This document shows positions 29,414 to 55,934 of a DNA stretch of 64,000 bases, in pieces. Source of the DNA: Cellulomonas sp. PhB143 (GTDB taxonomy: Bacteria > Actinomycetota > Actinomycetes > Actinomycetales > Cellulomonadaceae); contig NZ_RKIJ01000015.1 of NCBI RefSeq assembly GCF_003752595.1, forward strand, positions 62,001 to 126,000, in the 5' to 3' direction. The translations under genes were made by a program, and so were the position numbers. The first letter of the stretch is position 1. Each line of letters opens with the position of its first letter. The notes beneath the pieces are model-generated. The model was not told where the DNA came from, searched no databases, and saw nothing but the letters and a program-made list of their open reading frames with translations.

Positions 29414-29479
29414 GCAGAGGTCGGGGAGCAGGTCGGCGAGAAGCAGGCCCGTGTCGGACGCGACGCCTACGGTGGTCCC

Positions 29480-29950
29480 ATGAGCGAACGCCGCGTCACC
29501 GACGCCCTCGACGCCACGGGCATCGGCTACACGGTGACCCGGCACGAGCCGGCCGGCTCCCTGGCAGAGGCTGCCCGGGCTCGCGGGGTGGGGGCGGGAG
29601 ACCTGCTCAAGACGCTCGTCGTGCGCCGCGGCGAGGACGACTTCCTGCTCGTGCTGGTCCCGGGGGACCGGACCATCGCGTGGCCCAGGCTGCGCGCGCT
29701 GCTCGGCGTCACCCGCCTCTCGATGCCGGACGCGGCGGTTGCTCGCGACGTCACCGGCTACGAGCGCGGCACCATCACGCCGTTCGGTGCGCTGCGCGCG
29801 TGGCCCGTCGTGGCCGACGAGCGGGCCGCTGCGCCGCGGCGCACGGTCTCGCTCGGAGGCGGTGCGCACGGTGTCGGTGTGAGCGTCGACAACGACGATC
29901 TCGTGCGCGTGCTGGGCGCCACGGTCGCGGACGTGACCGATCCCGCCTGA
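29480..29950 (+). CDS. ybaK: YbaK/ProX-type aminoacyl-tRNA deacylase
   Basis: Predicted 156 residues. Conserved features of the YbaK/EbsC editing fold are present: DLLKTLVVRRGEDDFLLVLVPGD with its Lys, and GYERGTITPFGAL, the GxxxGxxxPxG-like loop near the active site. These enzymes hydrolyse Cys-tRNA(Pro) or other mischarged tRNAs. ATG 29480 has no ribosome site; TACGGT (29468-29473) ends exactly 6 nt upstream, and TGTCGG begins 16 nt before that box, so the transcript is probably leaderless and perhaps damage-linked. Confidence 0.88.
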   Translation: MSERRVTDALDATGIGYTVTRHEPAGSLAEAARARGVGAGDLLKTLVVRRGEDDFLLVLVPGDRTIAWPRLRALLGVTRLSMPDAAVARDVTGYERGTITPFGALRAWPVVADERAAAPRRTVSLGGGAHGVGVSVDNDDLVRVLGATVADVTDPA

Positions 29951-30456: not shown

Positions 30457-30478
30457 TGTCGGAGGCTGCCGCTAGGTT
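30457..30478 (+). promoter_or_regulatory. DNA-damage-type (PafBC-like) leaderless promoter of sbcDC
   Basis: TGTCGGAG (30457-30464), exactly 8 nt, TAGGTT (30473-30478), 6 nt, ATG 30485. The published RecA-independent damage promoter of mycobacteria, activated by PafBC, is TTGTCRGTG-N8-TANNNT; this site differs at the T of GTG. Spacing is exact. The six-base gap makes the A of ATG the likely transcription start. Confidence 0.6.
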
Positions 30479-30484
30479 CGACGC

Positions 30485-31720
30485 ATGCGCATCCTCCACA
30501 CGTCCGACTGGCACCTGGGCCGCGGCCTGCACGGGGTGGACCTGCTGGACCACCAGGCGGCGCACCTCGACCACCTCGTCGAGCTGGCTGCGGCGGAGCG
30601 CGTCGACGCGGTGCTCGTCGCGGGCGACGTCTACGACCGCGCGCTGCCGCCCGTCGAGGCGGTCACGCTCCTGTCGGAGTCGGTGCGCCGGCTCGCGGAG
30701 CGCAGCGCCGTCGTCCTGACGCCCGGCAACCACGACTCGGCGGTGCGCCTCGGCTTCGGTGCGGCTCTCATGCGCGAGGGCGTCCACATCCGCGCCCGGG
30801 TCGCCGGCGTCGGCACGCCCGTCGAGGTCCCCGCCCGCGGCGACGGGCCCTCCGTGCTGGTCTACGCGCTGCCCTACCTCGACCCGGACGCCTGCCGGGT
30901 GGCGCTGGCGGACGACGCGGCAGCGCCGCTGCCCCGCTCGCACGACGCGGTCGCGTCCGCAGCGCTGGACCGGGTCTCGGCAGACCTGCGCGGCCGCCGC
31001 GGCGGCGGCCTCGCCCGGCGCGGACCGGCCGACGCGCGCGCCGTGGTCATGGCGCACGCCTTCGTCGTCGGCGGGGTCGCGTCGGACTCCGAGCGGGACA
31101 TCCGGGTCGGCGGCGTCGACTCGGTGCCGGCGGGCGTGCTCGCCGGCCGCGGGCTCGACTACGTGGCGCTCGGCCACCTGCACGGGCCCCAGCGCGTGAC
31201 GGTCCCGGGCCGCGCGCCGGGGGACGAGGCCGACGGCGCCGCGCCGCCGCTCGCCCGGTACTCCGGCTCGCCGCTCGCGTACTCCTTCTCGGAGATGCAC
31301 CAGCACAAGTCCACGGTGCTGCTCGACACCGAGGCGCCCGCCGACGCGCGCGTCACGCTCGTCGACGCGCCGGTGCCGCGGAGGCTCGCCGAGCTGACCG
31401 GCCCGCTCGCCGACATCCTCGGCGCCGCGGGGGACGCTCACGTCGACGACTGGCTCCGGGTGGTCGTCACCGACCCGGCCCGTCCGTCCGAGCTGGTCGC
31501 CAGGGTCCGTGCGCGGTTCCCCCACGCTCTCCAGATCAAGCACGCCCCGGCCCAGCCGGTCGAGCGGGAGCGGATCGCCCTCGTCGCCGCGTCGACGGAC
31601 CCGCTCGCCGTCGCGCGGGACTTCGTCGAGCACGTGGCGGGCGCGCCGCCGTCGTCGGCCGAGCAGGACGTGCTCCGCGCGGCCCTCGAGGGCGCCCTCG
31701 CGACGGAGCGGAGCGCCTGA
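30485..31720 (+). CDS. sbcD: Exonuclease SbcCD, nuclease subunit D
   Basis: Predicted 411 residues. Mre11-type metallophosphatase motifs: RILHTSDWHLGR, AGDVYDRALPP, LTPGNHDSAVRLG, and YVALGHLHGPQRV. With SbcC it forms a Mn-dependent nuclease that cuts hairpins and processes double-strand ends. Its stop overlaps the sbcC start (TGATG), so the subunits are translationally coupled. The preceding promoter suggests induction by DNA damage. Hairpin-cutting is notable in a window holding many perfect palindromes. Confidence 0.96.
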   Translation: MRILHTSDWHLGRGLHGVDLLDHQAAHLDHLVELAAAERVDAVLVAGDVYDRALPPVEAVTLLSESVRRLAERSAVVLTPGNHDSAVRLGFGAALMREGVHIRARVAGVGTPVEVPARGDGPSVLVYALPYLDPDACRVALADDAAAPLPRSHDAVASAALDRVSADLRGRRGGGLARRGPADARAVVMAHAFVVGGVASDSERDIRVGGVDSVPAGVLAGRGLDYVALGHLHGPQRVTVPGRAPGDEADGAAPPLARYSGSPLAYSFSEMHQHKSTVLLDTEAPADARVTLVDAPVPRRLAELTGPLADILGAAGDAHVDDWLRVVVTDPARPSELVARVRARFPHALQIKHAPAQPVERERIALVAASTDPLAVARDFVEHVAGAPPSSAEQDVLRAALEGALATERSA

Positions 31721-45727: not shown

Positions 45728-45749
45728 CGTCGGTGGCGCCCGATAGCGT
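45728..45749 (+). promoter_or_regulatory. PafBC-like promoter element upstream of the MetP-type gene
   Basis: CGTCGGTG (45728-45735), exactly 8 nt, TAGCGT (45744-45749). It agrees with the damage-promoter consensus apart from its first base(s). It shares GTCGGTGGCGCCCG with the nuclease-helicase promoter at 52.07 kb. The transcript would start near 45756, 62 nt before ATG 45818. Damage control of an amino-acid importer would be surprising, so chance or a broader activator is possible. Confidence 0.45.
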
Positions 45750-51591: not shown

Positions 51592-51795
51592 TCAGGCCGG
51601 GCGGATGTTCTCCGCCTGCGGGCCCTTCGGGCCCTGCGTCACGTCGAACTCGACGCGCTGGTTCTCCTCGAGGGTGCGGTAACCCTGCGTCTGGATCGCC
51701 GAGTAGTGGGCGAAGACATCGGCCGAGCCGTCCTCGGGGGCGATGAAGCCAAAGCCCTTCTCAGCGTTGAACCACTTCACGATTCCAAGCGTCAT
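51592..51795 (-). CDS. cspA: Cold-shock protein CspA family
   Basis: Predicted 67 residues. [31 protein letters not shown] contains RNP1 (KGFGFI) and RNP2 (VFAHYSAI) for single-stranded nucleic-acid binding. It acts as an RNA chaperone. GAAGGAG lies 10 nt before ATG 51795. A leader of over 100 nt, less GC-rich than its surroundings, precedes it; a 13-bp terminator follows. Confidence 0.97.
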
Positions 51796-51960
51796 CTTCT
51801 TGCTGCTCCTTCAAGAGGTGTCAACGACCCCGTCGTTCGAGGTCGTGCATCACGGTGTTCGTCGTCAACTCTTGGGTAACAAGGTCCGCCGGGCGTGAAG
51901 CCGTAGCGCGAGGACAAGCGAGGCACTGCAATCTGCTCTTCAAGGGTACATGGCCGACGG
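51796..51960 (-). other. Long leader/promoter region of cspA
   Basis: This ~165-bp stretch and the rest of the 326-bp gap to 52121 hold no convincing gene. On the cspA strand it contains TTGACG near 51870 and pairing segments ACGACC (51824-51829) and GGTCGT (51841-51846). The base composition is less GC-biased than the flanks. Long structured leaders are typical of cold-shock genes. I could not fix a transcription start. Confidence 0.4.
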
Positions 51961-52035
51961 GATTCGCACCATGCTTCTGTGAGGACTCCTGTTCGCGGCA
52001 CCGCTGGGCCGGCCGCCGGACCTCGCCCGGCCCGT

Positions 52036-52054
52036 CTGCCAGACCGTCTGGCAG
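52036..52054. promoter_or_regulatory. 19-bp palindrome upstream of the nuclease-helicase promoter
   Basis: CTGCCAGAC-C-GTCTGGCAG is a perfect 9-bp inverted repeat around one base. It ends 10 bp before the PafBC-like element and about 240 bp from the cspA start. It could be an operator for the nuclease-helicase gene or part of a hairpin. Confidence 0.5.
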
Positions 52055-52064
52055 GGCGGGCGCG

Positions 52065-52086
52065 TGTCGGTGGCGCCCGGTAGGAC
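52065..52086 (+). promoter_or_regulatory. PafBC-like DNA-damage promoter of the nuclease-helicase gene
   Basis: TGTCGGTG (52065-52072), exactly 8 nt, TAGGAC (52081-52086). The upstream half is a full match to TGTCRGTG; the -10 has C for the final T of TANNNT. The start would be near 52093, giving a ~29-nt leader with GAGGAG ahead of GTG 52122. Damage induction suits the product. Confidence 0.65.
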
Positions 52087-52121
52087 TGGGGGCGTCCGAC
52101 CCGCCCGCGTGAGGAGTTCCC

Positions 52122-55100
52122 GTGTTCCTGCTGGACGACGTGCCCGCGCCGGGACTGCGCGAGGTCCGGGGCCTCGTCTGGTCTCCGAGCGACCTCGTGG
52201 CCGCCGCGCGCTGCGAGCTGGGAGTGGTGCGCCGCATCGACGAGGTGCTCGGCCGTGCTGAACGCGTCCCCGCCCCCGCGGACGAGATGCTGGTGCGCGC
52301 GAGCCGGCTCGGTGACGCGCACGAGCAGCGGGTGCTGGACGGGTGGGTGGCGCGCCTCGGCGCCGCGTCGGACGACGACGTCGCGGGCCGGGTGGTGAGC
52401 GTCCCGCCCCTGCGCCGTGTCGGGTACCTGGACCTGGTCGCCGCCCACGGAGCCACGCTCGCGGCGCTCGAGGCGGGGGCCGGCGTCGTCCACCAGGCCA
52501 CGTTCTTCGACGGCGAGATGCACGGCCGCGCCGACTTCCTGGTGCGAGAGGGCGACGGCGGGCGCTACGCCGTCCTGGACGCCAAGCTGGCGCGGCGGGC
52601 GAAGGTGGAGGCGCTGCTCCAGGTCGCGGCCTACGCGGACCAGCTCGTCGCGGCGCACGTGCCGCTCGCGCCGTCGGCGGGTCTCGTGCTCGGCTCGGGC
52701 GAGCGCACGGCGCACCGGCTCGCGGACCTGCTGCCCGTGTTCCGGGAGCGTCGCGCGCGGCTGCGCGCGATCGTCGCCGAGCGGCTCGCCGCGAGCGAGC
52801 CGGTGGCGTGGGGTGATCCTCGGTACCACGCCTGCGGGCGGTGCGAGCGCTGCGTGCCGGAGGTCGAGGCCCACGACGACGTGCTGCTCGTGGCGGGCGT
52901 GCGGCGCGCCCAGCGCGACGTGCTGCTCGCGAGCGGGGTACGCACCGTCGCGGCGCTGGCCGCGGCGCAGGAGCCGCCGGCAGCGATGTCGCCCACCACG
53001 TTCGCGAAGCTCCGGCGGCAGGCGGCGATGCAGTCCGGCACGGCGGAGGTCGACGGCACGGTGACCTGGGAGGAGGTCGTCGAGGGTCGTCCGGTCGCGC
53101 GGGAGCGGTCGTGGACCGTGGTCGACACCGCCCCGATCGACGCGCTGCCGCCCGCCAGCGACGGGGACCTGTTCTTCGACTTCGAGGGGGACCCGCTGTG
53201 GACGGACGCGTCCGCCTCCCGGTGGGGGATCGACTACCTCTTCGGCGTCACCGAACGCCCGGCGCCGGGGGAGCGCGCGCCGTTCCTGGCGTTCTGGGCG
53301 CACGACCTGGCGCAGGAGCGTGCGGCGCTCGTCGCCTTCGTCGACCACGTGGCCGAGCGACGGCGGCGCTACCCGGACCTGCACGTCTACCACTACGCGC
53401 CCTACGAGAAGACGCACCTCGTCTCGATCGCGGCCCGGCACGGGGTGTACGAGCAGGAGGTCGACGACCTGCTGCGCGCGGGCGTTCTCGTGGACCTGTA
53501 CGCGGTGGTCCGGGCGTCGGTGCGCATCTCGGCCGGCTCGTACTCCATCAAGAAGCTCGAGCCGCTGTACATGGCCGAGCACCTGCGCGCCGGGGACGTC
53601 ACGGACGCTGCGGCGTCGATCGTCGCGTACGCCGCCTACTGCGACCTGCGGGACGCGGGGGAGGCCGACGCGGCCGAGGAGCTGCTGGGCCAGATCCGCG
53701 ACTACAACCGGTACGACTGCGACTCCACGCTGGTGCTGCTCGCGTGGCTGCGGTGGGCCGCCGACCGGTCGCGGGCGCGTGCCGCGGGGGCTCGTGGTGC
53801 AGGGTCGGGTTCCTGGTCGCCGGGGTCGTCGTCGGACGTCTTCCATCCGGCCTCGTTCCTCGGCCTCCCGCCAGGCCCGTCCACGACGTCCGACGACGAC
53901 CCCGGCGACGGTCGGGACGGCACCACGGTCTCCTCGACCGCGACCCTCGACGGGGTGGCCGGTGACGGTGCGGGCACCGCCTCCGGCGTCGGCCCGGACC
54001 CGGCACGGGAAGATCCCCGGGCCGAGGCGCACGCCGTCGAGGCGCAGGTGCGGGAGATCGTCGGCGAGGACCGTGCGGCGCGCGACGCGCAGACGCAGGC
54101 GCTCGCGCTGATCGGTGCGGGCGTCGGTTACTACGAACGGGAGGACAAGCCGTTCTGGCAGGAGCACTTCTCGCGTCTCGCCGACCCGGTGGAGGACTGG
54201 ACAGGACGCCGCAGCTCGTTCGTGGTGGACGCCGCCACGGAGCTCGAGGGCTGGGCCGTGCAGCCTGGGCGCCAGACACCGTCGCGGCTCCTCGAGCTGC
54301 GTGGGCGGCTCGAGGAGGGCTCCGACCTGCGTGCCGGCGCGAAGACCTGGGCGGTCTACGAGTGCCCAGGGCCGGGGTGCGCCAAGTCGTCCGAGAACGG
54401 CTCGCGCGTGTGGACCGAGGGGATCGAGGTCGTCGAGGTGTCCCGGGACGCCGAGACGGACGTGCTGGTCGTCGCCGAGCGGGCACCGCGCCGCGCGGAG
54501 CCGTGGTCCGAGCTGCCCATGGCGCTCGCGCCCGCGAAGGGCCCCTACACCGCGCCCCAGCAGGAGGCCGTCCTGGAGACCGCGCGGCGGTGCCTCGCGA
54601 GCTGGCGGGCGGAGCCGGGCCCGCGGGGCGAGCGGCTGCCGCGGTCCGCCGTCGTCGACCTCGTGCTGCGGCGGCCCCCGCGGTGCGTCGGAGACACCGC
54701 CGGGCCGGCCGGCACGCTCCCGCCCGTGGGCGAGGGCCCGGACCGATACGTCGAGGCGATCACCGCGGCGGTGCGCGGTCTCGATCGCTCCTGCCTCGCC
54801 GTCCAGGGCCCGCCGGGGACGGGCAAGACGCACGTCGCCTCGCACGTGATAGCCCGCCTCGTGGCCGACGGGTGGCGCATCGGCGTCGTCGCCCAGTCCC
54901 ATGCCGCCGTCGAGAACCTCGTCCGCGCCGTCGTGGAGAAGGCGGGCGTCCCGGGGGCCGTGGTCGCCAAGAAGCTCGAGAACGGAGCGAAGCCGTCGGG
55001 CGAGCCCTGGCAGCAGGTCGACGGCAAGGGCCTGGCCGTCGCGGCGGCGGCCGCGCCGTGCGTCGTCGGCGGCACGGCCTGGGACTTCGCGAACGCCAAG

Positions 55101-55934
55101 AACTTCCCCGACGAGCACCTCGACCTGCTCGTGGTCGACGAGGCCGGTCAGTTCTCGCTCGCGAACACGATCGCCGTCGGGCGCGCGGCGCGCCGCCTCC
55201 TCCTGCTCGGCGACCCGCAGCAGCTCGACCAGGTCACCCAGGGGCGCCACCCCGAGCCGGTCGACCGCTCCGCGCTCGCCCACCTGGCGGGCGAGCACGG
55301 CGTGCTCCCGGCCGAGCACGGGTACTTCCTCTCGACGACGTGGCGCATGCACCCCGCCCTGGCCGGGGCCGTCTCCGAGCTCGCGTACGAGGGCCGGCTC
55401 GCCGCGGAGCCCGTGACCCGCGAACGCCGGCTCGACGGCATCCTCCCGGGCCTGCGGACCGTGCGGGTGCCCCATGTCGGCAACGCGACGTCGTCGCCGG
55501 AGGAGGCTGCCGAGGTCGTGGCGCTGGTGCGTGACGTCCTGGGGCGGGGGTGGACGGCGTCGTCGGGCAGCGACCCCGCACCCCTCGACGAGGCGGGAGT
55601 GATCGTCGTGGCCGCGTACAACGCGCAGGTCTGGACGGTGCGGCGTGCGCTGGAGCGGGCCGGTCTCGGAGCAGTGCGCGTGGGGACGGTCGACAAGTTC
55701 CAGGGCCAGGAGGCCCCGGTCGCGATCCTGACCACGGCCGCGTCGTCGGTCGAGGACGTCCCGCGCGGCCTGGGTTTCCTGCTCTCGCGCAACCGGGTCA
55801 ACGTCGCGGTCTCGCGCGGGCAGTGGTGCGCGGTCGTGGTGCGCTCGACCCGGCTGACCGACCACCTGCCCGGGACGCCGGAGGACCTGGAGCAGCTCGG
55901 CGCGTTCGTCGGGCTGTGCGAGCGCGGCGACTGA
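52122..55934 (+). CDS. TM0106-family RecB-like nuclease fused to RNase-H-like and SF1 helicase domains
   Basis: Predicted 1270 residues, Dna2-like. Residues ~20-250 form a Cas4/RecB nuclease: Asp138 in HGRADFL, Asp153 and Lys155 in VLDAKLA, Gln167/Tyr171 in LLQVAAY, and Fe-S cysteines at 31, 238, 241 and 244 (CGRCERC). A DEDD-type fold begins DLFFDFEGDPL (~347), continuing HYAPYEKTHL and RDYNRYDCDSTLVL. The helicase has Walker A VQGPPGTGKTHVA (~895), VVDEAGQFSL (~1003), TVDKFQGQEAPVAIL and NVAVSRG. It probably processes DNA ends or stalled forks. The preceding promoter suggests damage induction. GTG start behind GAGGAG. Confidence 0.9.
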   Translation: MFLLDDVPAPGLREVRGLVWSPSDLVAAARCELGVVRRIDEVLGRAERVPAPADEMLVRASRLGDAHEQRVLDGWVARLGAASDDDVAGRVVSVPPLRRVGYLDLVAAHGATLAALEAGAGVVHQATFFDGEMHGRADFLVREGDGGRYAVLDAKLARRAKVEALLQVAAYADQLVAAHVPLAPSAGLVLGSGERTAHRLADLLPVFRERRARLRAIVAERLAASEPVAWGDPRYHACGRCERCVPEVEAHDDVLLVAGVRRAQRDVLLASGVRTVAALAAAQEPPAAMSPTTFAKLRRQAAMQSGTAEVDGTVTWEEVVEGRPVARERSWTVVDTAPIDALPPASDGDLFFDFEGDPLWTDASASRWGIDYLFGVTERPAPGERAPFLAFWAHDLAQERAALVAFVDHVAERRRRYPDLHVYHYAPYEKTHLVSIAARHGVYEQEVDDLLRAGVLVDLYAVVRASVRISAGSYSIKKLEPLYMAEHLRAGDVTDAAASIVAYAAYCDLRDAGEADAAEELLGQIRDYNRYDCDSTLVLLAWLRWAADRSRARAAGARGAGSGSWSPGSSSDVFHPASFLGLPPGPSTTSDDDPGDGRDGTTVSSTATLDGVAGDGAGTASGVGPDPAREDPRAEAHAVEAQVREIVGEDRAARDAQTQALALIGAGVGYYEREDKPFWQEHFSRLADPVEDWTGRRSSFVVDAATELEGWAVQPGRQTPSRLLELRGRLEEGSDLRAGAKTWAVYECPGPGCAKSSENGSRVWTEGIEVVEVSRDAETDVLVVAERAPRRAEPWSELPMALAPAKGPYTAPQQEAVLETARRCLASWRAEPGPRGERLPRSAVVDLVLRRPPRCVGDTAGPAGTLPPVGEGPDRYVEAITAAVRGLDRSCLAVQGPPGTGKTHVASHVIARLVADGWRIGVVAQSHAAVENLVRAVVEKAGVPGAVVAKKLENGAKPSGEPWQQVDGKGLAVAAAAAPCVVGGTAWDFANAKNFPDEHLDLLVVDEAGQFSLANTIAVGRAARRLLLLGDPQQLDQVTQGRHPEPVDRSALAHLAGEHGVLPAEHGYFLSTTWRMHPALAGAVSELAYEGRLAAEPVTRERRLDGILPGLRTVRVPHVGNATSSPEEAAEVVALVRDVLGRGWTASSGSDPAPLDEAGVIVVAAYNAQVWTVRRALERAGLGAVRVGTVDKFQGQEAPVAILTTAASSVEDVPRGLGFLLSRNRVNVAVSRGQWCAVVVRSTRLTDHLPGTPEDLEQLGAFVGLCERGD

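Follow-up and report, generated by a model that had tools for sequence, protein, structure and literature searches.

In mycobacteria, PafBC binds single-stranded DNA through its WYL domains, and the sigma-A polymerase then uses promoters in which a -26 element replaces the -35 element (PMC11804915). The consensus given for M. tuberculosis is TGTCGG-N10-TA-N3-T, and its direction is essential (PMC8151990). The M. smegmatis motif was reported as not conserved in S. venezuelae (PMC9380542). Among the M. smegmatis proteins, MSMEG_1252, a 'DNA helicase', was lower in a pafBC deletion (PMC5656591). This protein, whose level is thus PafBC-dependent, is possibly the mycobacterial orthologue of the TM0106 gene described below; PMC5656591, the one paper found that mentions it, gives no mechanism for the effect.

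Proteins of COG2251 combine a RecB-like nuclease, an RNase H-like exonuclease and an AAA helicase (PMC3985635). Literature searches under the names TM0106 and COG2251 yielded no work on the function of the family, and no PafBC study of a TM0106-family gene was found published under that name.

The locus analyzed here resembles the RecA-NDp/P1 promoters of Mycobacterium in its -26 element, in the 8-nt gap to the TA of the -10 element and in its orientation, and the host genome has target genes of the same kind (recA, uvrA and uvrB). It differs in the last base of the -10 element, which is C, in its host, a member of the Cellulomonadaceae, and in the TM0106-family gene that it would drive. The protein encoded has the same three parts as other members of the TM0106 family/COG2251 (TIGR03491). 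With eukaryotic Dna2 it shares an N-terminal Cas4/RecB-type Fe-S nuclease and a C-terminal SF1 Upf1-like helicase; it differs from Dna2 by an extra DEDD exonuclease, and the fold similarity over the whole protein is weak.

Sequence analysis

The window, i.e. the whole 64-kb stretch of DNA analyzed, was searched with the published form of the motif, TTGTCRGTG-N8-TANNNT, as reference pattern, and was scored with a weight matrix trained on nine further sites from the host genome. Upstream regions of orthologues were drawn from relatives in the family, order and class, and from named genomes. The features located are listed in Table 1.

Table 1. Features of the candidate promoter and of the gene downstream of it (window coordinates)
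Feature	Position	Strand	Basis or remark
PafBC recognition element (-26 element), TGTCGGTG	52065..52072	+	perfect match; also before recA, uvrA, uvrB; kept before orthologues
-10 element, TAGGAC	52081..52086	+	C in place of the last T of TANNNT
Predicted transcription start	52093	+	28 nt after motif start, at the start-codon position of leaderless orthologues
Predicted 29-nt 5' leader	52093..52121	+	this genus; other genera start leaderless
Shine-Dalgarno GAGGAG before GTG 52122	52111..52116	+	sequence
TM0106-family (COG2251-type) nuclease-helicase gene, 1270 aa	52122..55934	+	TIGR03491; PF13482; PF13086/PF13087
Cas4/Dna2-like PD-(D/E)XK nuclease domain, residues ~21-253	52182..52880	+	catalytic residues; AlphaFold; Foldseek
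RNase_H_2 (DEDD-type 3'-5' exonuclease-like) domain, residues 350-543	53169..53750	+	PF13482 50.1 bits, cut-off 22
SF1B Upf1/IGHMBP2/Dna2-like helicase domain, residues ~880-1244	54759..55853	+	AAA_11/AAA_12; PDB matches

The candidate promoter

The plus strand of the window reads TGTCGGTG-GCGCCCGG-TAGGAC at 52065-52086, exactly the motif and position given in the initial annotation. That annotation had also called it a match to TTGTCRGTG-N8-TANNNT with exact spacing. The core and spacing stood: the -26 element conforms to the TGTCRGTG of PafBC (RecA-NDp) promoters, and GCGCCCGG places 8 nt between it and the TA of the -10 element. Two consensus positions deviate: the first T is replaced by G and the final T of the -10 by C, so that TAGGAC is not a TANNNT hexamer. 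A TANNNT -10 is a general sigma-A feature and is not specific to PafBC.

Because of the G before TGTC and the C at the end of the -10, the strict pattern had no match in the 64 kb. The 10-position core, TGTCGGTG-N8-TA, had its sole perfect match in the window here; five sites were found when one mismatch was allowed, against a chance expectation of 1.0. By the weight matrix the candidate ranked first among 127,958 window positions, with a score of 17 bits versus 25-29 bits for the training sites, the low score being due to the missing T of the -10. The motif lies 57 nt before the GTG at 52122 and points towards the gene. As conserved sites in related genera also carry the C, the candidate was named a probable PafBC promoter, homologous to these and with a deviant -10.

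PafBC-type sites in the host genome and its relatives

The 3.2-Mb host genome holds 13 copies of the pattern TGTCRGTG-N8-TA, versus none of the reversed pattern. Named from their translations, with no profile searches, the genes behind the other 12 sites are recA, uvrA, uvrB, those of a RecQ-like helicase, an MgsA/RarA-like ATPase and four HNH/DUF222 proteins, and further those of a small monooxygenase-like protein, a sigma factor and a DUF3499-type protein. The final T of the -10 is present at all of these 12. At most sites of the genome the start codon follows the first T of the motif by exactly 28 nt; since a transcription start 7 nt past the TANNNT hexamer coincides with a start codon at this distance, most appear leaderless. 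The genome also carries pafB and pafC as a pair, with tatA behind them. In ten of 11 relatives the core with TANNNT gave 2-22 matches, versus 0-2 for the reversed pattern. The host genome holds a recognizable PafBC-type regulon of repair genes.

Other sites of this kind were noted in the window. Positions 30457-30478 read TGTCGGAG-N8-TAGGTT and form a second PafBC-type site of the leaderless kind, which the ATG of sbcD (30485-31720, plus strand; SbcD exonuclease subunit, TIGR00619, 152 bits) follows at a distance of exactly 28 nt. The sequence TGTCGGAC-N8-TACGGT at 29452-29473 precedes by 28 nt the ATG of a gene for a YbaK-like tRNA-editing protein (29480-29950, plus strand; PF04073, 98 bits), damage regulation of which would be unexpected. 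A sodium-dependent transporter gene is preceded, at about 90 nt, by a sequence close to the candidate, CGTCGGTG-GCGCCCGA-TAGCGT (45728-45749, plus strand). In the host genome, four near-identical HNH/DUF222 (13E12-like) genes (L002, L005, L007 and L012) have a common leaderless PafBC-type promoter, and an SOS-like half palindrome, ACATATGTTCGA, spans their start codons.

Conservation upstream of TM0106-family orthologues

Conservation of the motif upstream of orthologues had been proposed in the initial annotation as a check, and it held strongly across many Actinomycetia genera. With up to two mismatches the motif was found in 150 of 192 distinct upstream regions, 25 times perfectly, versus 21 regions and no perfect match on the opposite strand; these counts, like the others from orthologues, are not phylogenetically independent, and the spacer, strand and offset controls share the same genus-level relatedness. 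In 126 orthologue upstream regions from 51 genera, a spacer of 8 gave 12 perfect cores and 48 with at most one mismatch, compared with 0-1 and 0-8, respectively, for spacers of 4-7 and 9-12; the mean of a Markov null was 0.7. The sites cluster at two distances from an in-frame start codon, 28 nt (24 genes) and 29 nt (22 genes) upstream of it; other offsets had 1.6 genes on average.

The site precedes the TM0106 gene with exact geometry across mycobacteria, Arthrobacter, Rothia, Microbacteriaceae and Cellulomonadaceae. Carriers included Agromyces italicus, Cryobacterium cheniae, Cellulomonas avistercoris, Herbiconiux ginsengi, Pseudarthrobacter, Rothia, Kocuria and many Mycobacterium species (e.g., M. 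triplex and M. paraense). Exceptions, with no site before the orthologue, include Sanguibacter suaedae, Rhodococcoides corynebacterioides and Nocardioides malaquae. Of 28 genomes examined for PafB, 27 had a homologue, whether or not the site was present, so the lack of sites in some genera is not due to a lack of PafB. In the upstream regions of one genus (g10; L094, L095, L098, L102 and L120) a conserved TGTCAGTGGCGAGTTGGAGGAT, without the TA of a -10, was seen some 230 nt upstream of the TM0106 gene.

Variation of the -10 element and the leader

Several genera of the Cellulomonadaceae have TAGACC or TAGAAC as the -10, with no final T and with TG at -15/-14 (extended -10). Across instances, with phylogeny ignored, absence of the T went with presence of the TG (odds ratio 0.12, p 6e-8); both were absent in just 11 of 151, and both are absent at the candidate. 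The two sister species read TGG-TAGAAC and TGG-TACGAC where the window reads CGG-TAGGAC. The motif is the main conserved intergenic block within the genus, and the -26 element is perfect in the window only, among the window and these two species. The leaderless start codon at +28 has been lost in this genus, where a conserved MFLLDD start stands about 29 nt downstream, behind a leader with a Shine-Dalgarno sequence.

These observations bear on the first alternative, namely that the PafBC site is in decay or near-silent in this species, its -26 element intact and its -10 drifted, with expression weak, constitutive or from elsewhere. The C at the last -10 base, the loss of the TG and the 17-bit score would fit such decay. 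However, the T is also absent from both sister species and from several other genera in which the element is still in place, the -26 element is better than those of the sisters, and the gene is intact; decay was considered improbable. In a functional PafBC promoter, the deviant -10 probably lowers promoter strength, or raises the dependence on PafBC, relative to the promoters of recA or uvrA.

A cold-shock protein gene (51592-51795, minus strand) is divergent from the TM0106 gene in the window and in both sister species; none was seen in this position at the other loci checked.

Other regulatory signals

The best match to a LexA box, TCGAAC-N4-GTTCGA, in the upstream region of the gene itself had four mismatches. 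At two mismatches the box was found in 2 of the 192 orthologue upstream regions, versus 9 for a control palindrome, and LexA control of the TM0106 gene was rejected because the SOS box did not exceed the control. The recA and uvrA genes of the same genome have SOS-like boxes with one mismatch near their PafBC motifs. A perfect 19-bp palindrome, CTGCCAGACCGTCTGGCAG, at 52036-52054, directly upstream of the -26 element, was rejected as an operator; it has a single copy in the genome and was absent from view in both sister species. A plain sigma-70 promoter was also rejected, none having been found in 51780-52200, where there is no sigma-A -35 hexamer.

The absence of a -35 at the candidate likewise speaks against a conserved promoter that is read by another regulator (e.g., ClgR) or by sigma-A alone, and not by PafBC. 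A role of ClgR on the mycobacterial P1 motif has been reported and is discussed in PMC5656591. Against it, in vivo binding of PafBC to RecA-NDp sites of M. smegmatis is cited in PMC6789036, and in the host genome the classical targets of PafBC are preceded by the same element. Control by a factor other than PafBC was therefore judged very unlikely.

The nuclease-helicase

The identity of the product as a TM0106-type RecB/DEDD/SF1 protein was borne out by profiles and catalytic residues. TIGR03491 scored 154.3 bits, against a curated cut-off of 97.45, and PF13482 and PF13086/PF13087 (AAA_11/AAA_12) also scored over their cut-offs in the 1270-aa protein. Among 39 homologues, the nuclease residues D138, D153-x-K155, Q167 and Y171 and the cysteines C31, C238, C241 and C244, in the pattern of Fe-S nucleases, were invariant or nearly so, and the exonuclease residues D353, E355, D458 and D532 were invariant. 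An AlphaFold model of residues 1-555 had a mean pLDDT of 94; its best Foldseek matches were Cas4 (probability 1.00) and Dna2 (probability 0.94), with E ~1e-3 and a low whole-length TM-score. The helicase half matched SMUBP-2 (IGHMBP2; 2e-15), UPF1 (2e-10) and DNA2 (4e-10) in the PDB.

The description 'Dna2-like' applies to the architecture, a fusion of Fe-S nuclease and SF1 helicase, and to a possible mode of action. It does not extend to membership of the Dna2 family: no Dna2 nuclease profile was matched among the Pfam or NCBIfam results for the protein, and the DEDD exonuclease domain (PF13482) lies between the two fused parts.

The helicase half also resembles Mokosh MkoA (6e-39), which would favor an enzyme that is mainly an anti-phage defence protein and only incidentally damage-inducible. 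The resemblance is confined to the helicase, however, and the gene, unlike island-type defence genes, is present in 100 of 121 genomes of the family and has a promoter of the type found in the repair regulon. A chiefly defensive role is accordingly held to be highly doubtful.

Proposed mechanism and significance

A chance motif match near a repair gene is hardly credible, for although base composition would by our own estimate allow about 1-2 chance core matches per genome, the reversed pattern had none and the orthologues keep the exact spacing, strand and start-codon distance, which rejects chance unless the candidate alone is an exception.

In all likelihood, therefore, the site at 52065-52086 is a promoter through which DNA damage induces the TM0106-family nuclease-helicase gene in dependence on PafBC and independently of RecA/LexA. 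By analogy with the mycobacterial work, single-stranded DNA arising upon damage would bind the WYL domains of PafBC, which would join the housekeeping RNA polymerase at the -26 element and replace the -35 contact. Transcription would begin at about 52093, and the Shine-Dalgarno sequence of the short leader would direct translation from the GTG. The Cas4/Dna2-like Fe-S nuclease, second exonuclease and SF1 helicase may then together trim or unwind damaged DNA ends or flaps.

Very probably the enzyme belongs to the DNA-damage response, as the same promoter motif is kept before its gene in dozens of related genera. The link between gene and PafBC response drawn in the initial annotation is well supported by the sequence, given the conserved motif, the presence of pafBC and the PafBC-type regulon. 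On these grounds there is good support for regarding the candidate as a new, widely conserved member of the known PafBC regulon, one whose -10 is deviant in the host genome. A broader reading, put forward tentatively, is that the TM0106 nuclease-helicase may be a core LexA-independent effector of the PafBC response across much of the Actinomycetia and may take, in bacteria, the functional place of Dna2 in the processing of ends or flaps, its promoter having switched from leaderless to leadered translation in some genera under retained PafBC control.

If MSMEG_1252 is the TM0106 orthologue, the link to PafBC is in part already contained in published data (PMC5656591). Conservation of a promoter type that belongs to the main damage response of mycobacteria gives the TM0106 gene a placement in a pathway and a role that is directly testable. 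In the Cellulomonadaceae, the genome sequence also allows recognition of the PafBC regulon that mycobacterial studies have described.
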